From positions 1-42,876 of the forward strand of contig QHVM01000021.1 of the NCBI GenBank assembly GCA_003223555.1: a DNA stretch of 42,876 nucleotides, read 5' to 3'. This DNA is from Acidobacteriota bacterium (GTDB lineage Bacteria > Acidobacteriota > Vicinamibacteria > Fen-336). Every line of letters begins with the position of its first letter. Position 1 is the first letter of the stretch. This document shows positions 269-37,597 of this stretch, in pieces. The notes under the pieces were generated by a model. It made no database searches. It had not been told where the DNA came from and was given only the letters and a program-made list of their open reading frames with translations. Made by a program: the position numbers and the translations under genes.

Positions 269-817
269 ATGGCCTGGATCCGGACGGTGGACCCCGCGGG
301 AGCGGAGGGGCTCCTCAAACAGATCTACGACGCGGCCGTCCGGCGGGCGGGGAAGGTCTTCAACGTCGTCCGCCTGCAGAGCCTGCGCCCGAAGGTCCTT
401 CGAGCGTCGACGCAGCTCTACCTCGAGCTGATGCACGCTCCCGAGGGCGCGCTCACCCGCGCCCAGCGGGAGATGATCGCGGTCGTCGTGTCCGCCGCCA
501 ACGGCTGTCATTATTGAATGGACACCCACGGGGAGGATCTCGGGGCCGAGATCCAGGGCCAGCCGGGCGCGGATGAGCTGCTCGCCGCCCTGAAGGCCGA
601 CTACCGCCGCGCCGAGCTGTGCGCGGCCGACCGCGCGATGCTGGACTACGCGGTGAAGCTCACCCGCACGCCCTCCACGATGCGGCCGGACGACGTGCAG
701 GCGCTGCGGTCGGCGGGCCTGGGCGACGCAGCGATCCACGACGTCGCGCAGATCACGGCTCTCTTCAACTACTACAACCGCGTCGCCGACGGCCTGGGCA
801 TCGACCCCGAGCCGTAG
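269..817 (+). CDS. AhpD-like peroxidase-related selenoprotein (in-frame TGA = Sec)
   Basis: This is an alkylhydroperoxidase D / carboxymuconolactone decarboxylase-fold protein of the 'peroxidase-related enzyme' type, 182 residues if TGA 515-517 is read through. The frame is open on both sides of the TGA. The local motif is N78-G-C80-H-Y-U83-M-D-T-H87, which matches the AhpD CxxC-x3-H site with selenocysteine at the second, peroxidatic cysteine. The E/R-rich helix before it (LTRAQREMIAVVVSAANG) and the C-terminal helices (TALFNYYNRVADGLGIDPEP) are typical of the family. A stem-loop suited to SelB lies 25 nt after the TGA (see 535-554). Read as two ORFs, the first would end inside the active site and the second would start within it, which makes little sense. 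The stop (TAG) overlaps the GTG of the next gene, so translation is coupled. The role is presumably thiol-dependent peroxide reduction; the substrate is unknown. Selenocysteine insertion is inferred, since no sel genes are in the window. Confidence 0.85.
535..554 (+). promoter_or_regulatory. bacterial SECIS-like hairpin
   Basis: Downstream of TGA 515-517, GGATCTC (535-541) pairs perfectly with GAGATCC (548-554). The apical loop is GGGGCC, or GGGC if one more C-G pair forms. The loop begins 25 nt after the TGA, inside the roughly 16-37 nt spacing known for bacterial SECIS elements, and a G leads the loop as SelB recognition generally needs. The stem sits within the coding sequence and codes for EDLGAEIQ. 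Confidence 0.75.
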
Positions 818-3678
818 TGCGGGGCTCCCGGCTCTCCGACGCGCTCGGCGCCGTCCTCGCCCTCGTCGTCGCTCTCCTGGTCCTCGCCGTGCTCCGCTGG
901 GGGCCCGTCTACGCCGAGCCGCCGCTGCCCGTACGGGCGCTGCCGCTAGCGGGACCGGCAGTGCTGCTGGCGGTGCTGGTCGCGCTGACGGCCGGCGAGC
1001 GGCCGTCGCGTCCGATCCGTCCTTTCGTCTTTGCCCTCTTCGCGTGCGCCGCGGCGCTGGCTCTCGTCGTCAGGCTGCGCCCCGCCGCCGGTCTGCCCGC
1101 CGAGGTCTCCGACGCATCGGCGGTCGTCGGCCGGCTGCCTCCCGGCCCGATCGAGGTGAACGGGCCGCTCTTGCGTGACCTGCCGCCAGTGCGGCGCTGG
1201 ACGTTCCGGTGGGCGGGGCCGCTGCGCGTGGACGAGCCGGGCACGTACCGTCTCTGGGTGGCCGGCCGCGGGCGCGTGGAGGTGAGCCTCGACGGCCGGC
1301 CGGCGCTGGCCGCCGTCGTCAGGCTGCGCCCCGCCGCCGGTCTGCCCGCCGAGGTCTCCGACGCATCGGCGGTCGTCGGCCGGCTGCCTCCCGGCCCGAT
1401 CGAGGTGAACGGGCCGCTCTTGCGTGACCTGCCGCCAGTGCGGCGCTGGACGTTCCGGTGGGCGGGGCCGCTGCGCGTGGACGAGCCGGGCACGTACCGT
1501 CTCTGGGTGGCCGGCCGCGGGCGCGTGGAGGTGAGCCTCGACGGCCGGCCGGCGCTGGCCGCCGAGGGCGATCCCCTCCGGGCCGGGAGCGACATCGGCC
1601 TCTCGGCGGGAGAGCATCGGCTCGACGTCGTCCTGCACCGGATCGGTCCCGGACCGCGCCTTCGCCTCGGCTGGTCGCACGGCGGGCGCGACGGGATGAT
1701 CCCGCCCCGCCACCTGGGGCCCGCCGGCGGGAGGCTCGGCTGGCGTCTCGTCGACCTGCTCGCGCTCGCGATAGCGGCCCTGGCCGGAGTGATCGTCTTC
1801 GTGGCGCCGTGGGCGGGGCCGCGCACGCTGCCCGCGCCGTCGCGGGTGACGCCGCGCGAGGTCGGCCTCTCGCTGGCCGGCCACGCCGCCCTCGTGGCGC
1901 TCATGAGCTGGCCGCTCGTCCTCGACCTCGCCCACGCCGGCATGACCGACCGGCCCGACGGACGGCTCAACGCATGGATCCTGGCCTGGGACGTCCACGC
2001 GCTCCGCCACCAGCCCACCCGCCTGTTCCAGGCGCCGATCTTCCATCCGCTGCCTGACGCGCTCGCGTTCTCCGAGAACCTCATCGTGCCCGCCGCCCTG
2101 TCCGCGCCGTTCCAGCTCGCGGGCGGCCCGGTGCTGGGCTACAACGTGGTCCTCCTGCTCAGCATGATCGTTTCCGGCCTGGGCGCCCAGCTCCTCGTCC
2201 GGCGGGTGAGCGGCGACCGCTTCGCCGCCTTCGTGGGGGGAGCGATGTTCGCGGTGGGGGCGCACCGCTGGATCCGCCTCGCCCACCTGCAGGCCCAGGT
2301 CACGATCTTCCTTCCGTTCGCGCTCCTCGCTCTGGATCGCTTCTGGGAGAAGCGGACGGCGCGCCGCGGGCTGCTCGTGGGCCTGCTGCTCGCGCTGCAG
2401 GCGCTGGCGTCCATCTACCTCGGGGCCGTCACCGCCCTCGCGCTGGCGGCCGCGGTCGGCGCCGCCCTCTTCGCCGGGCTGAAAGCGCGGGACCTGCTCC
2501 GCCTCGCCGCCGGCGCCGCTCTCGCCGCGCTGCTCCTCCTGCCCGTGGCCCGTCCCTACCTCCGCATGCGGTCGTTCTACGGCGTGGAGTGGTCGATGGC
2601 GGACGTGGCCACCTACGCCACCACCCTCGAGTCGTACGCGGCGGGAGGAACGCGGCTCTACGGCTCGATCGGACAGAGGCACCTCGATCCGGAGCGCGTC
2701 CAGGACACGCTCTTCCCGGGCCTGACCGTCCTGCTGCTCGGTCTGGCCGGCCTCGCCGTGGCGCCCCGGCGCTACCGCGCGGTGGCCGTCGTCGCCTCGA
2801 CGCTCGCGATCCTCGTCTCGCTCGGCCCGCAGACCGCCCTCTACCGCTTCCTCCACGAGAACCTCGTCTTCGTCCGCGGCGTGCGCGCCCTGTCGCGCTT
2901 CTCGCTCCTGCCCGTGCTGTCCCTCGACGTGCTGGCCGGCATCGCGCTCTCGGGGCGGCGGCACGGGCTGGCCGTGGCCGCGCTCGTCCTGATGCTCGCC
3001 GAGTCCAGCAACGTCCCGATCCGCTACGCGAGGTACGCCGGCCCGCCGGACTCGGCCCGCTGGCTCGCGGGCCGCCCGGGCGCGGTGGCCGTGTTGCCCC
3101 TCGGCGAGGGCGACACCCAGGCCATGCTCGACGGCACCGTCCACTTCCGGCCTTTGGTCAACGGTGACTCGGGTTTCGTGCCGCGCCCCTACACGCGCGC
3201 GATGGAGCTGCTGCAGGAGCCGCTGACCGCGGACGCCCTCCGCCTCCTGCGCGCGGTGGGGGTGAGCGACGTGGTGACGCGCTCGGACGAGGCGCTGTCC
3301 GAGCAGGCGCGCTTCGGCGAGGAGAGGATCTACGCGGTGCCGCCGGGGGAGGCGGCCCACGCCGTCTCGCCCGGCCGGGGCGCCCTCGCCGGGGCGAGCG
3401 GGCTGGGCTTCGACCTCGGAGAGGCGCGGCAGATCGACGCCGTCGTCTTCGAGGTCGACGAGGCCGACTGGGTCGCGCGGCCACGACTGGGCCTGTCGCT
3501 CGACGGCCAGCACTGGACCGATGTCGAGGCCGTGGCCAGCCTCGCCGACGCCACGCTGTCGCTCATGAAGGACCCGCGCCACGGACGGGGCGAGATACGC
3601 TTCGCCACCCGGAACGCCCGCTATGTCCGGCTCGACCCCCGCCTTCCTGCCCGCCCGGGAACGCTGCAGTCCAGATGA
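817..3678 (+). CDS. large polytopic membrane protein with PA14-like and discoidin-like domains
   Basis: This 953-residue protein has the layout of a membrane glycosyltransferase (GT39/YfhO-like type). Two N-terminal membrane segments come first. A PA14-like beta-sandwich region follows (GPLRVDEPGTYRLWVAGRG ... GEHRLDVVLHRIG). About ten further hydrophobic helices then span roughly residues 310-740, with an extracytoplasmic loop carrying YFHPLPDALAFSENL-like residues. The C-terminal soluble part ends in an F5/8-type-C-like sequence (LGFDLGEARQIDAVVFEVDE ... YVRLDP). It probably glycosylates an envelope substrate from a polyprenyl-linked sugar; substrate and donor are not evident. The start GTG 817 overlaps the TAG of the preceding gene (TAGTG). 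Residues about 84-166 and 167-249 are identical because of an exact 249-bp tandem duplication, and only the second copy runs on into the rest of the PA14 fold. Confidence 0.75.
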   Translation: MRGSRLSDALGAVLALVVALLVLAVLRWGPVYAEPPLPVRALPLAGPAVLLAVLVALTAGERPSRPIRPFVFALFACAAALALVVRLRPAAGLPAEVSDASAVVGRLPPGPIEVNGPLLRDLPPVRRWTFRWAGPLRVDEPGTYRLWVAGRGRVEVSLDGRPALAAVVRLRPAAGLPAEVSDASAVVGRLPPGPIEVNGPLLRDLPPVRRWTFRWAGPLRVDEPGTYRLWVAGRGRVEVSLDGRPALAAEGDPLRAGSDIGLSAGEHRLDVVLHRIGPGPRLRLGWSHGGRDGMIPPRHLGPAGGRLGWRLVDLLALAIAALAGVIVFVAPWAGPRTLPAPSRVTPREVGLSLAGHAALVALMSWPLVLDLAHAGMTDRPDGRLNAWILAWDVHALRHQPTRLFQAPIFHPLPDALAFSENLIVPAALSAPFQLAGGPVLGYNVVLLLSMIVSGLGAQLLVRRVSGDRFAAFVGGAMFAVGAHRWIRLAHLQAQVTIFLPFALLALDRFWEKRTARRGLLVGLLLALQALASIYLGAVTALALAAAVGAALFAGLKARDLLRLAAGAALAALLLLPVARPYLRMRSFYGVEWSMADVATYATTLESYAAGGTRLYGSIGQRHLDPERVQDTLFPGLTVLLLGLAGLAVAPRRYRAVAVVASTLAILVSLGPQTALYRFLHENLVFVRGVRALSRFSLLPVLSLDVLAGIALSGRRHGLAVAALVLMLAESSNVPIRYARYAGPPDSARWLAGRPGAVAVLPLGEGDTQAMLDGTVHFRPLVNGDSGFVPRPYTRAMELLQEPLTADALRLLRAVGVSDVVTRSDEALSEQARFGEERIYAVPPGEAAHAVSPGRGALAGASGLGFDLGEARQIDAVVFEVDEADWVARPRLGLSLDGQHWTDVEAVASLADATLSLMKDPRHGRGEIRFATRNARYVRLDPRLPARPGTLQSR
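1066..1563 (+). repeat. perfect tandem duplication, 2 x 249 bp, in frame
   Basis: Bases 1066-1314 and 1315-1563 are identical at every position I compared, third codon positions included. The unit is 83 codons and keeps the reading frame. It encodes the first half of the PA14-like region. Complete identity means either a very recent duplication or an assembly artefact. Confidence 0.95.
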
Positions 3679-9546: not shown

Positions 9547-12500
9547 ATGTCGACCCATCCCCCCGAGAAAACGACAGCCGAAGCCCGGACGACGCCCCAG
9601 GCCGCCCGCCCCGGACTCTCCTTCCGGCGTCATTTCACGAGGCCCGGCCGGCATCCCTTCGACGAGGTGAGCTGGGAGACGCGCTCGGCGGTGATCAACG
9701 ACGAGCGCGGCCAGGCGGTCTTCGAGCAGCACGGCATCGAGGTGCCGTCGACCTGGAGCCAGACCGCGACGAACATCGTGGCCTCGAAATATTTCCGCGG
9801 GATGCTGGGCTCGCCGGAGAGGGAGGGCAGCGTCCGGCACCTCATCTCCCGGGTGGTGGACACCATCACGGCGTGGGCCGACAAGCAGGGCTACTTCGCG
9901 ACGGCGGACGACCTCGCGAGCTTCTCGGCCGAGCTGACCCACCTGCTCGTGAGCCAGAAGGCGGCCTTCAACAGCCCGGTCTGGTTCAACGTCGGGATCG
10001 AGAAGCATCCCCAGGCCTCGGCTTGCTTCATCAACTCCGTGAACGACACGATGGAGTCGATCCTCGGGCTGGCCAAGACGGAGGGGATGCTCTTCAAGTT
10101 CGGCTCCGGCACCGGCTCGAACCTCTCCTCGATCCGCTCGAGCCGGGAGCCGCTGGCCGGGGGCGGCACCGCCTCGGGGCCGGTCTCGTTCATGCGGGGC
10201 TACGACGCGTTCGCGGGCGTGATCAAGAGCGGAGGCAAGACGCGCCGCGCGGCCAAGATGGTGATCCTCAACGCGGACCATCCCGACATCGAGGAGTTCA
10301 TCACCAGCAAGGCCGACGAGGAGAAGGGCGGGGCCTACGACTCGGTCTTCTTCCAGAACGCGAACCACTCGGTCCGCGTCACCGACGAGTTCATGCAGGC
10401 GGTCGTGGACGGCAAGGAGTGGCAGACGAAGTACGTGCTGACCGGGAAGACCTGCCAGACCTACCAGGCCGGCGACCTCATGCGGCTGATGGCCGAGGCG
10501 GCCTGGCAGTGCGGCGACCCCGGCCTGCAGTTCGACACCACGATCAACGACTGGCATACCTGCCCGGGCACCGCGCGGATCAATGCATCGAACCCATGCG
10601 TGACGGGAGACACGCTGGTGGCCACTTCCGAGGGCTGGCGGCGCATTGACGGGTTGGTGGGCCGGTCGGCGGAGATCATCGGCTCCGATGGCCAGCCGCA
10701 TCTGGTCGACTGCATCTTCCCGACCGGCACGAAGCAGGTGTACCGCCTGCGAACCCGCGCCGGCTATGAGGTTCGGATCACCGCGGACCACAAAGTCTGG
10801 ACGATCGACCGCGGCGATGTTCCGGTCAGCGATCTTAGAATGGGCGAGCGGCTGCAGCTGGTCGCCCCCGGTTTCGGTCGGCGGGCGGTTGGCGAGCAAT
10901 TGGCGATGGCCGTTGGCGTCGCGGTCGGAGATGGCTGCCTCGTGCGTAGCGCCCATCGTTACGGGATCCAGGAAATCGTGATTCTGACCATGGCTGCCAA
11001 CGAGGCCGGTGTGCTGGTTTCCATTGCCGGTGCCGTGAACGAGGAGAAGCAATTGCGGCGAGCCGTGGGCGCGGTCGGCCGTCCAGACGGCGTCTCAGTG
11101 AGGGTAAGCCAGTCCGGCTCTCGGTTGGCCTTCTCTTCACGGCCGGACGTGGACCTGTTCAAGGAGTTCGCCGTTCTCGACGAGGGTAGCCATCGCAAGC
11201 GCTTCACGCCGGCCGTTTTCGATCTTGACAAGCCCTCGCTGGCGGCGCTGCTTCGCGGGCTGTTCACCTCCGATGGCACGGTCGCGAACTACGGCGAGAA
11301 GTCGCAGTACATCTCCCTCGATTCGTCCTCACGGGAGCTGCTGGGACAGGTGCAGATCCTGCTCCTGGGCTTCGGCGTCAAGTCCAAGCTCTACGACAAC
11401 CGCCGAGGAGGTATCACCGCGTCGATGCTTCCCGACGGACGCGGTGGGATGAAGAGCTATCCGGTCAAGGAGATGTATTCACTGCGCGTCAGTCGCTCGT
11501 GGCGGTTCGTATTCGAGCGGGAGATCGGCTTCGATCCCTCGAGCCCCAAGGCAGCTGCTCTCGCGACTCTCAATGGGCAGATCAGCACTTGTCGCGACGA
11601 CCTGACTGACGCCGTAGCATCGATTGAGCCGGTCGGTGAGCAGCCCGTCTACGATCTGACCGAGAGGTCGACCCATCATTTCGTAGCCAACGGCTTGCTG
11701 GTCCACAACTGCTCCGAGTACATGTTCCTCGACGACACCGCCTGCAACCTGTCCTCCCTCAACCTCATGAAGTTCCGGAAGGAGGACGGCGAGTTCGACG
11801 CCGAGGCATTCAAGGCCGCCTGCCGGACGATGATCACCGCCCAGGAGATCCTGGTCGACAACGCCAGCTACCCGACGCCGGCCATCGACCGCAACAGCCA
11901 CGACTACCGGCCCCTCGGTCTCGGCTACGCCAACCTGGGCGTGCTGCTCATGGACCGCGGCCTGCCCTACGACTCGGACGCCGGCCGGGCCTACGCGGCG
12001 GCCGTCACCGCCCTCATGCACGGCGAGGCGTACGCCCAGAGCGCGCGGGTCGCCTCGGCCATGGGTCCCTTCTCCGGCTACGCCCGGAACGAGGAGCCGA
12101 TGCTGCGGGTGATCGACAAGCACCGGCAGCACGCCCACATGATCGACTCCACGCTGGTGCCGAAGGAGCTGCTACGGGAGGCCCTCACGGTATGGGACGA
12201 GGCCTACGCGCTGGGCGCGCAGCACGGCTACCGCAACAGCCAGGTGACCGTGCTCGCGCCCACCGGCACGATCGGCTTCATGATGGACTGCGACACGACC
12301 GGCATCGAGCCCGACATCGCGCTCGTCAAGTACAAGAAGCTGGTGGGCGGCGGGGTGATGAAGATCGTCAACCAGTCGGTGCCCGGCGTGCTGCGCAAGC
12401 TCGGCTATCCGGCGGCCCAGGTGGACGAGATCGTGCGCGCCATCGACGAGAAGGAGACGATCGAGGGCGCGCCCCACCTTCGGGAAGAGCACCTGGCCAT

Positions 12501-13341
12501 CTTCGACTGCGCGTTCCCGCCCGCGAGCGGCAAGCGGTCCATCCCCTACATGGGCCACATCAAGATGATGGCGGCGGTGCAGCCGTTCCTCTCGGGGGCG
12601 ATCTCCAAGACCGTCAACATGCCGGCCGACTCGACGCCGGACGACATCACCGACGCGTACGTCGAGTCGTGGCGGCTCGGGCTGAAGGCGGTCGCCGTCT
12701 ACCGCGACGGCTGCAAGCGGAGCCAGCCGCTCAGCACCTCGAAAGACGAAGGCAAGACGGCCGGCGCGGCCCCCGCGCCCGACGCGCGTCCGGCCCGGCG
12801 CAAGCTGCCCGACGAGCGGCGGGCGATCACCCACAAGTTCTCGATCGCCGGCCACGAGGGCTACATCACGGTGGGGATGTACGACGACGGGAAGCCGGGG
12901 GAGATCTTCCTCGTCATGGCCAAGGAAGGCTCCACCATCTCCGGCCTGATGGACGCTTTCGCGACGTCCATCTCGATGTCGCTCCAGTACGGCGTGCCCC
13001 TGGAAACGCTGGTAGAGAAGTTCTCCCACGTGCGCTTCGAGCCCTCGGGCTTCACCAAGAACCCGGAGATCCCGTACGCGAAGAGCATCACGGACTATAT
13101 CTTCCGGTGGCTGGCCTCGAAGTTCCTCTCCGCCGAGCACCAGGAGGCGGTCGGCGTGCACCCGGTCCAAGCTCCGTCCGAGGCGCCCGCCGGCGGCGCC
13201 CCGACCCGGGCGACCGCGGGGGGCCCGGCTTACCGGAGCCAGGCCGACGCCCCGTCGTGCCACTACTGCGGCAGCATCATGACGCGCAACGGCAGCTGCT
13301 ACCGGTGCAGCAACTGCGGGAGCACCAGCGGATGCAGCTAG
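9547..13341 (+). CDS. nrdJ: adenosylcobalamin-dependent ribonucleotide reductase with intein
   Basis: A class II ribonucleotide reductase that makes deoxyribonucleotides without oxygen dependence, using AdoCbl to generate the thiyl radical. The precursor is 1264 residues, and the spliced enzyme would be 893. Seen: the first redox Cys in QASACFINS (C160), the N-P-C-S-E active-site core split by the intein, NLSSLNL, QVTVLAPTGTIGFMMDCDTTGIEPD, the strongly conserved tail VHFRPSG-like region (SHVRFEPSGFTKNPEIPYAKSITDYIFRWLA), and a Cys-rich zinc-ribbon C-terminus (CHYCGSIMTRNGSCYRCSNCGS). GGAGG stands 8 nt before ATG 9547. The upstream region carries a NrdR-like box and two promoters. No cobalamin riboswitch is recognisable in the short leader. 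The last 10 bases overlap the next gene. Confidence 0.97.
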   Translation: MSTHPPEKTTAEARTTPQAARPGLSFRRHFTRPGRHPFDEVSWETRSAVINDERGQAVFEQHGIEVPSTWSQTATNIVASKYFRGMLGSPEREGSVRHLISRVVDTITAWADKQGYFATADDLASFSAELTHLLVSQKAAFNSPVWFNVGIEKHPQASACFINSVNDTMESILGLAKTEGMLFKFGSGTGSNLSSIRSSREPLAGGGTASGPVSFMRGYDAFAGVIKSGGKTRRAAKMVILNADHPDIEEFITSKADEEKGGAYDSVFFQNANHSVRVTDEFMQAVVDGKEWQTKYVLTGKTCQTYQAGDLMRLMAEAAWQCGDPGLQFDTTINDWHTCPGTARINASNPCVTGDTLVATSEGWRRIDGLVGRSAEIIGSDGQPHLVDCIFPTGTKQVYRLRTRAGYEVRITADHKVWTIDRGDVPVSDLRMGERLQLVAPGFGRRAVGEQLAMAVGVAVGDGCLVRSAHRYGIQEIVILTMAANEAGVLVSIAGAVNEEKQLRRAVGAVGRPDGVSVRVSQSGSRLAFSSRPDVDLFKEFAVLDEGSHRKRFTPAVFDLDKPSLAALLRGLFTSDGTVANYGEKSQYISLDSSSRELLGQVQILLLGFGVKSKLYDNRRGGITASMLPDGRGGMKSYPVKEMYSLRVSRSWRFVFEREIGFDPSSPKAAALATLNGQISTCRDDLTDAVASIEPVGEQPVYDLTERSTHHFVANGLLVHNCSEYMFLDDTACNLSSLNLMKFRKEDGEFDAEAFKAACRTMITAQEILVDNASYPTPAIDRNSHDYRPLGLGYANLGVLLMDRGLPYDSDAGRAYAAAVTALMHGEAYAQSARVASAMGPFSGYARNEEPMLRVIDKHRQHAHMIDSTLVPKELLREALTVWDEAYALGAQHGYRNSQVTVLAPTGTIGFMMDCDTTGIEPDIALVKYKKLVGGGVMKIVNQSVPGVLRKLGYPAAQVDEIVRAIDEKETIEGAPHLREEHLAIFDCAFPPASGKRSIPYMGHIKMMAAVQPFLSGAISKTVNMPADSTPDDITDAYVESWRLGLKAVAVYRDGCKRSQPLSTSKDEGKTAGAAPAPDARPARRKLPDERRAITHKFSIAGHEGYITVGMYDDGKPGEIFLVMAKEGSTISGLMDAFATSISMSLQYGVPLETLVEKFSHVRFEPSGFTKNPEIPYAKSITDYIFRWLASKFLSAEHQEAVGVHPVQAPSEAPAGGAPTRATAGGPAYRSQADAPSCHYCGSIMTRNGSCYRCSNCGSTSGCS
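10597..11709 (+). other. intein (371 aa) with degenerate LAGLIDADG endonuclease, in nrdJ
   Basis: An in-frame insertion from Cys351 to Asn721 of the precursor. Block A is CVTGDTLV with Cys1. Block B is YEVRITADHKVW with the TxxH site. Two dodecapeptide-like motifs are AVGVAVGDGCLV and LLRGLFTSDGTV, indicating a LAGLIDADG homing endonuclease domain. Block F/G is YDLTERSTHHFVANG ending LLVHN, and Cys722 is the +1 residue. All splicing residues are present, so it should splice. Its codons are less GC-biased than those of the flanking extein, a sign of separate origin. It sits between Pro and Cys of the NPCSE motif, so the +1 Cys is the catalytic radical cysteine. Confidence 0.95.
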
Positions 13342-35212: not shown

Positions 35213-37597
35213 GTGAGCCAACAGCTCGTCCTGCGGCGGGAGCGGACTGAAGAGGCGCTCGTCGCCGTCCTGAAAGGCCTCGAGGCGGCGAAGGGGCCGG
35301 GGGCGGAGCCGGTCCTGGCCGCCCTGCGCCGTTTCCCCGCCCAGCCGGCGGTGTTCGCCGGGCTGCCCGAAGGCCTGCACCCGCGGCTGCGCGACGCGCT
35401 CGCGGCGCGCGGTCTCGCCCGGCTCTATTCACACCAGCGCGATGCCTACGAGGCGGCCCGCTCCGGACGCCACATGGTCGTGGTGACGCCGACCGCCTCC
35501 GGCAAGACTCTCTGCTACAACCTGCCCGTCCTCGACCGCATCCTCAACGAGCCGGACGCCCGGGCCCTCTACCTGTTCCCGACCAAGGCCCTGGCCCAGG
35601 ACCAGCTCGCCGAGCTGCACTCGCTCGTGGAGGCGCTGGGGGCCGACATCGGCGCGTTCACCTACGACGGCGACACGCCCGGCGACGCCCGCAAGGCCGT
35701 CCGCTCCCGCGCCCACGTGGTCGTCACCAACCCGGACATGCTGCACAAGGGGATCCTGCCCCATCACACCAAGTGGGTGAAGCTGTTCGAGAACCTCCGC
35801 TACGTGGTGGTGGACGAGCTGCACACCCACCGCGGCGTGTACGGCTCCCACGTGGCCAACATCCTCCGCCGCCTGCAGCGACTCTGCCGCTTCTACGGCT
35901 CCGACCCGCAGTTCCTCTGCTCGTCGGCCACCATCGGAAACCCGAAGGAGCTGGCCGAGACGCTGACCGGCCGGCCGATGGCGCTCATCGACCGCAGCGG
36001 CGCGCCGCGGGGCGAGCGCTACTTCGCCATCTACAACCCGCCGGTCGTCAACCGGCCGCTCGGCATCCGCCGCTCCGCCCTCAACACGGCGCGGGACGTG
36101 GCCCTGTCCTTCTTGAACAAGGGGCTGCAAACGATCGTCTTCGCCCCCTCGCGCCTCGCCACCGAGGTGCTCGTCACGTACCTGAAGGAGGCGCTCGAGG
36201 CGCGGCCGGGCGCGGAGGGGGTGGTACGCGGCTACCGCGGGGGCTACCTGCCCCTGAAGCGGCGGGAGATCGAGCGGGGCCTGCGGGACGGCTCCGTGCT
36301 GGGAGTGGTCTCCACCAACGCGCTCGAGCTGGGCATCGACATCGGCGGGCTCGACGCGGCGGTGCTCCTCGGCTATCCGGGAAGCGTGGCCTCGGCCTGG
36401 CAGCAGGCCGGCCGCGCGGGCCGCCGCTCCAGCACGTCGGTCGCGGTGATGGTCGCCAACTCGACGCCCCTCAACCAGTTCATCGCCCGCCACCCGGACT
36501 ACTTCTTCGGGGCGCCCGTCGAGCAGGGCCGGATCAACCCCGACAACCTGCACATACTCGTCAGCCACGTGAAGTGCGCCGCCTTCGAGCTGCCCTTCGG
36601 CGCCGACGAGGGCTTCGGCAGCGAGGACGTGCAGCAGGTCCTCTCCTTCCTCGAGGAAGAGCGCCTCGTCCACCGCGCGGGCGGGCGCTGGCACTGGACG
36701 AGCGAGAGCTATCCGGCCGATGCGGTGAGCCTGCGCAGCGTCTCCTCGGACAACTTCGTCGTCCAGGACGTCACGCCGGGCAAGGATCCGCGGATCATCG
36801 CCGAGGTGGACTTCGACTCGGCCCCCGCCGTGCTCCACGAGAAGGCGGTCTACATCCTGGAGGGCAAGACCTACCTGGTCGAGAGGTACGACCACGCCGA
36901 GCGCCGGGCCGAGGTGCGGGAGGCGGAGGTGGACTACTACACCGACGCCGTCACGTACACGAAGGTGCGGATCCTGGAGCGGTTCGACGGAGAGGATGCC
37001 GGGCGAGCCCGCCGGAGCCACGGGGAGGTCCACGTCACGGCGCAGGTGGTCGGGTTCAAGAAGATCAAGTTCCACACCAACGAGAACGTGGGCTCGGGCG
37101 AGCTGCAGATGCCCGAGAACGAGATGCACACGACCGCCTACTGGCTGACCATCCCGCGCGAGACCCTGGCCGGATTGCCCTACGGCCGCGAGGAGCGGGG
37201 GGACGGCGTCGTGGCCTTGAGCTACACGCTGGGGCAGCTGGCCGCGCTGTTCCTCATGTGCGACCGGCACGACCTGGGAGTGGCGGTCGGCGACGACGGC
37301 CGGGGCGAAGCCCGCGTGGAGAGCGGCCGGCGCCGGCTCGACGAGAGCGAGCCGCCGGCGGCCCCGGGAGCGGACTACGAGCCGAACATCTTCCTCTACG
37401 ACAACTACCCGGGCGGGATCGGGCTCTCAGAGCCGCTCTACCGGCTTCACCCTCGCCTGCTGGCCGAGAGCCGCGCCCTCATCGCCGGCTGTCCGTGCGC
37501 GGAGGGATGTCCGTCCTGCGTGGGTCCCGCGGGCGAGGCGGGGACGCGCGGCAAGGAAGTGGCGCTGGCCCTGCTCGACCTCCTCCTGAGCCGGTGA
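35213..37597 (+). CDS. mrfA: MrfA-like DEXH helicase with DUF1998 (YprA family)
   Basis: A 794-residue SF2 helicase. Motif I is TPTASGKT (92-99), motif II is VVVDELHTHRG (about residue 200), motif III SSATIGNP, motif VI QQAGRAGRRSS. The C-terminal DUF1998 region contains YDNYPGGIGLSEPLYR and four Cys in CPCAEGCPSC (about 761-771), as in the zinc site of Bacillus MrfA. In Bacillus, MrfA with MrfB repairs mitomycin-type DNA damage in an excision pathway separate from UvrABC. Here the next gene is the MrfB partner, overlapping by GTGA. GTG 35213 is the family-compatible start. Identity and pairing are strong; the damage specificity is an inference from the family. Confidence 0.9.
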   Translation: MSQQLVLRRERTEEALVAVLKGLEAAKGPGAEPVLAALRRFPAQPAVFAGLPEGLHPRLRDALAARGLARLYSHQRDAYEAARSGRHMVVVTPTASGKTLCYNLPVLDRILNEPDARALYLFPTKALAQDQLAELHSLVEALGADIGAFTYDGDTPGDARKAVRSRAHVVVTNPDMLHKGILPHHTKWVKLFENLRYVVVDELHTHRGVYGSHVANILRRLQRLCRFYGSDPQFLCSSATIGNPKELAETLTGRPMALIDRSGAPRGERYFAIYNPPVVNRPLGIRRSALNTARDVALSFLNKGLQTIVFAPSRLATEVLVTYLKEALEARPGAEGVVRGYRGGYLPLKRREIERGLRDGSVLGVVSTNALELGIDIGGLDAAVLLGYPGSVASAWQQAGRAGRRSSTSVAVMVANSTPLNQFIARHPDYFFGAPVEQGRINPDNLHILVSHVKCAAFELPFGADEGFGSEDVQQVLSFLEEERLVHRAGGRWHWTSESYPADAVSLRSVSSDNFVVQDVTPGKDPRIIAEVDFDSAPAVLHEKAVYILEGKTYLVERYDHAERRAEVREAEVDYYTDAVTYTKVRILERFDGEDAGRARRSHGEVHVTAQVVGFKKIKFHTNENVGSGELQMPENEMHTTAYWLTIPRETLAGLPYGREERGDGVVALSYTLGQLAALFLMCDRHDLGVAVGDDGRGEARVESGRRRLDESEPPAAPGADYEPNIFLYDNYPGGIGLSEPLYRLHPRLLAESRALIAGCPCAEGCPSCVGPAGEAGTRGKEVALALLDLLLSR

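Follow-up and report, generated by a model that had tools for sequence, protein, structure and literature searches.

An AhpD-like, peroxidase-related gene of an Acidobacteriota bacterium with a TGA codon very probably read as selenocysteine

Whether the TGA at 515–517 ends a short reading frame or is read as selenocysteine (Sec) within a longer one is the question raised by positions 269–817 of the DNA studied here (the window, 42,876 nucleotides from an Acidobacteriota bacterium), which is part of contig C25 in an assembly of 5.39 Mb, 151 contigs and 98% completeness. A single frame (frame 1) extends from ATG 269 to TAG 815–817 and contains one in-frame TGA, codon 83. Under the standard code it falls into an 82-codon stump and a separate ORF of 99 aa (518–817), the split into two short products that the earlier note had foreseen for conventional gene calling. 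If TGA is read as Sec, a protein of 182 residues results, in which the motif around the codon is C80-H-Y-U83-M-D-T-H87 and TGA occupies the second Cys place of a CxxC. The features of the coding region are as follows:

269–817, + strand: coding sequence of an AhpD-like, peroxidase-related selenoprotein (very probable), 182 aa with Sec83; frame, profile and PDB matches, homologs
470–472, + strand: Glu68, AhpD profile position 118, proposed proton-relay acid; column invariant
506–508, + strand: TGT, Cys80, expected resolving Cys of CxxU; column invariant in the alignment
515–517, + strand: TGA, very probably selenocysteine, residue 83, second Cys of CxxC; homologs with TGA or Cys
527–529, + strand: His87, AhpD profile position 137, proposed proton relay; column invariant

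The 182-aa reading was assigned to the NCBIfam family TIGR01926 (peroxidase-related, AhpD-like) with 154.9 bits against a cut-off of 81.8, residues 2–182 lying on profile positions 1–177/178, and Pfam CMD (PF02627) was matched as well. The match thus runs end to end and covers the C-terminus beyond TGA, which had been described as family-typical. Related structures in the PDB (3c1l, 6k40, 2pfx, 2oyo, 2prr), mostly of uncharacterised peroxidase-related proteins, span residues 12–182 or nearly so. CxxU and the following His, the features by which membership of the family is judged, are found in invariant columns (C80-H-Y-U83-x3-H87). Two neighbouring profiles stayed below their cut-offs in the same search: canonical AhpD (TIGR00777) with 21.4 bits against 191.95, and the AhpD-related (seleno)protein NF041238 with 67.1 bits against 175. 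The designation AhpD-like therefore holds in the sense of TIGR01926, and not in that of canonical AhpD. The alignment to TIGR00777 nevertheless places residues 60–92 on positions 110–142 with an offset of 50, so that E68, C80, U83 and H87 fall on 118, 130, 133 and 137, positions which we take to be the Glu, the resolving Cys, the peroxidatic Cys and the His of Mycobacterium tuberculosis AhpD. Sec is therefore located where the attacking residue is expected, as the earlier note had proposed for this TGA. Residue 82 is Tyr, a place at which M. tuberculosis AhpD presumably has His132.

The two short ORFs of standard gene calling are also what a true stop would present, in a gene broken or split by a nonsense mutation or a sequencing error. 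This was confronted with homologs, drawn from 60 whole genomes of relatives and from 80 loci in named genomes, by direct inspection of their codon for residue 83. The window aside, it is TGA in 93 relatives, TGC or TGT in 15 and a Ser codon in one; that Cys should appear here in some homologs had been predicted. Sec forms occur in Acidobacteriota, Myxococcota, Gemmatimonadota, Chloroflexota, Poribacteria, Planctomycetota and others, including Nannocystis isolates (Myxococcota), one of them on a complete chromosome. Conservation does not cease at the codon: amino-acid identity to close relatives is 0.57–0.70 before TGA and 0.48–0.64 after it, the differences mostly affect the third base of codons, before TGA as well as after it, and each of the 23 relatives included in the comparison of flanks has the frame behind TGA. 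As TGA is conserved from phylum to phylum, a nonsense mutation or pseudogene is rejected. In the tree, whose bootstrap support is not fully settled, 14 of the 15 Cys forms constitute one group (Chloroflexota and Actinomycetota) and the remaining one stands among Sec forms.

Selenocysteine insertion in bacteria calls for a SECIS element behind the codon, and a perfect 7-bp hairpin with a G-led loop after TGA had been pointed out by the earlier note:

535–554, + strand: predicted bacterial SECIS hairpin, stem GGATCTC (535–541) and GAGATCC (548–554), loop 542–547; covariation

The 7-bp stem was confirmed; its 6-nt loop, GGGGCC, begins 24 nt past TGA, and an alternative drawing has 8 bp and the loop GGGC. 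Published limits for bSECIS elements are a loop of 3–9 nt located 16–37 nt after UGA, a stem of 4–16 bp, G in the first two loop positions and a minimum free energy (MFE) of -7.5 kcal/mol or lower (PMC13188914). Loop, stem and distance all lie inside these limits, as does the MFE of the region (about -17 kcal/mol). This energy was dropped as evidence for the hairpin, as it is no better than that of shuffles (z -0.22), which is explained by the GC-richness of the region, and as Cys homologs, taken in bulk, show equally stable folding of this stretch. The case for the stem is carried by covariation. Among 19 sequences in a common register, 97.7% of cells pair compared with 30–47% when the stem is slid, an excess that is partly expected in view of the stem having been read off the same 19 sequences. 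Four of the seven stem pairs vary on both sides, with 24 two-sided compensatory cells, and the covariation score was reached by none of 500 shuffles. The rows from Poribacteria show two-sided changes, CG to UA and CG to GC among them, which are strong evidence for the stem. The hairpin at 535–554 is, on these comparisons of sequence, a covarying SECIS element.

A true stop at 515–517 is therefore very improbable: TGA stands at the same codon in the relatives, the downstream frame is conserved and the hairpin covaries. The conservation of TGA and downstream frame, together with the compensatory changes in the stem, lifts the support for Sec beyond chance, and positions 269–817 can with great confidence be regarded as a selenoprotein gene, in which TGA 515–517 is decoded as Sec83 via a SECIS element and the product is AhpD-like (TIGR01926).

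The hairpin does not keep one distance from TGA throughout the family. Its loop starts about 16–19 nt after TGA in the majority of clades, at 24 nt in the clade of the window and at 28 nt in two Anaerolineae (L075, L079), with a contrast in register between loci L046, L069–L081 and others on the one side and L024 and L054–L067 on the other. The tree calls for no fewer than two changes of the 24-nt register. It is rather probable, though far from assured, that the SECIS, measured from UGA, has changed its place in the coding sequence within one selenoprotein family. If so, the family could show how a SECIS register shifts while the active site of the protein is kept.

Decoding would further demand the selenocysteine machinery, and the search of the genome for it which had been recommended gave a divided result, with three components found and selA lacking. 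In profile searches of the same genome selB was detected on contig C28 with 335.6 bits including its C-terminal part (cut-off 242), and selD on C126 at 2747–3667 (L011) with 341 bits and an in-frame TGA of its own in the active-site loop (CAGU); tRNA-Sec (selC) with anticodon TCA is located on C45. No selA was found over the cut-off in the assembly. The best match, short and with 23.6 bits, is situated on C151 and was rejected, as it reads by eye as a different, PLP-enzyme-like protein, and no selA was seen beside selB on C28.

The missing selA might indicate a former user of Sec which lost this gene, the locus being a relic that ends at TGA. We regard such a loss as highly unlikely, since the genome has selB, selC and a selD of the Sec type, and since selA was recovered over the cut-off in 46 of the 60 genomes searched, among them the same-genus genome and 10 of 13 other genomes of the same family. 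The position of selA is informative as well. In the same-family genomes examined it lies between purH and nuoN-nuoM (in the same-genus genome, on a short contig, this arrangement is visible only in part), and no gene is common to the selA loci of the family and the region around selB. This assembly lacks purH, which the control search recovered from 13 of 14 genomes, and the nuoM copies found in it are diverged ones, with at most 52% identity and in a different neighbourhood. As a near-universal gene is missing too and nuoM is represented by diverged copies only, an assembly gap is the likely cause: the block purH-selA-nuoN-nuoM was probably left unassembled.

The machinery also bears on a changed genetic code, by which UGA would specify some other amino acid. 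The selD of this genome terminates at TGA, so that TGA has two meanings here, Sec and stop; the genome also possesses selB and tRNA-Sec, and Cys occurs at residue 83 in some homologs. The likelihood of a recoded UGA is accordingly negligible, and selenocysteine is retained as the reading of codon 83. For the organism itself, insertion of Sec is what we infer from the sequence of gene and machinery.

On this basis a course of events can be proposed. SelB bound to the hairpin 535–554 of the mRNA would deliver Sec-tRNA to UGA 515–517, and the ribosome would then continue to TAG 815–817, resulting in the 182-aa AhpD-like protein. Its Sec83 selenolate would attack the substrate, a selenenylsulfide would form as Cys80 resolves the intermediate, proton relay could fall to Glu68 and His87, and the enzyme would be regenerated by a thiol reductant of the cell. 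Catalytic steps, electron donor and substrate are inferred here, the mechanism being the ordinary one for such enzymes. The predicted role is most likely the reduction of small peroxides or that of a related thiol-disulfide enzyme. No conserved operon partner that would point to a function was found in the flanks of the window gene and of 23 relatives.

Upstream of the gene, at 121–142, lies an imperfect inverted repeat, ACCTACCGA-4 nt-TCGGTAAGT, which by resemblance could be an operator of a TetR-type repressor. The next gene encodes a large membrane protein in which PA14 was matched, and contains at 1052–1564 a tandem duplication (unit of 249 bp, 2.1 copies, 98% match). As the duplication is in frame, the protein carries this unit twice. 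Elsewhere in the window, 9547–13341 corresponds to a class II (B12-dependent) ribonucleotide reductase with an intein carrying a LAGLIDADG endonuclease domain, and 35213–37597 to a DEAD-box helicase of the HRQ1/MrfA type with a Zn-binding domain.

As a selenoprotein the enzyme class is already known, and the present gene is a further member in this genome. AhpD-like selenoproteins with CxxU have been reported since 2005–2008 (PMC1088965, PMC1794560, PMC2398784), and TIGR01926 with CxxU is included in a list of prokaryotic selenoproteins from 2026, with MCB9421940.1 as example (PMC13188914). The window protein has the curated profile, the CxxU motif and a single Sec in common with the latter; compared with the example given there it is a new member with its own SECIS in the 24-nt register. 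CxxU and the CMD/AhpD domain are likewise shared with AhpD-like 1 and AhpD-like 2 of the Global Ocean Sampling survey (COG2128, pfam02627; PMC2398784). NF041238, characterised by a CFYUT motif, matches residues 2–179, but with a score below its cut-off the protein is not a member. With canonical AhpD, such as that of M. tuberculosis, the spacing of Glu, Cys, Cys/Sec and His is equal; unlike there, Sec replaces the peroxidatic Cys.

The selenoprotein reading corrects an annotation that would otherwise consist of two short hypothetical proteins, and the use of selenocysteine is documented in this lineage. With a distribution across many phyla, Sec as well as Cys forms and a shifted SECIS, the family offers a fair case for studying the exchange of Sec and Cys and the placement of the SECIS.
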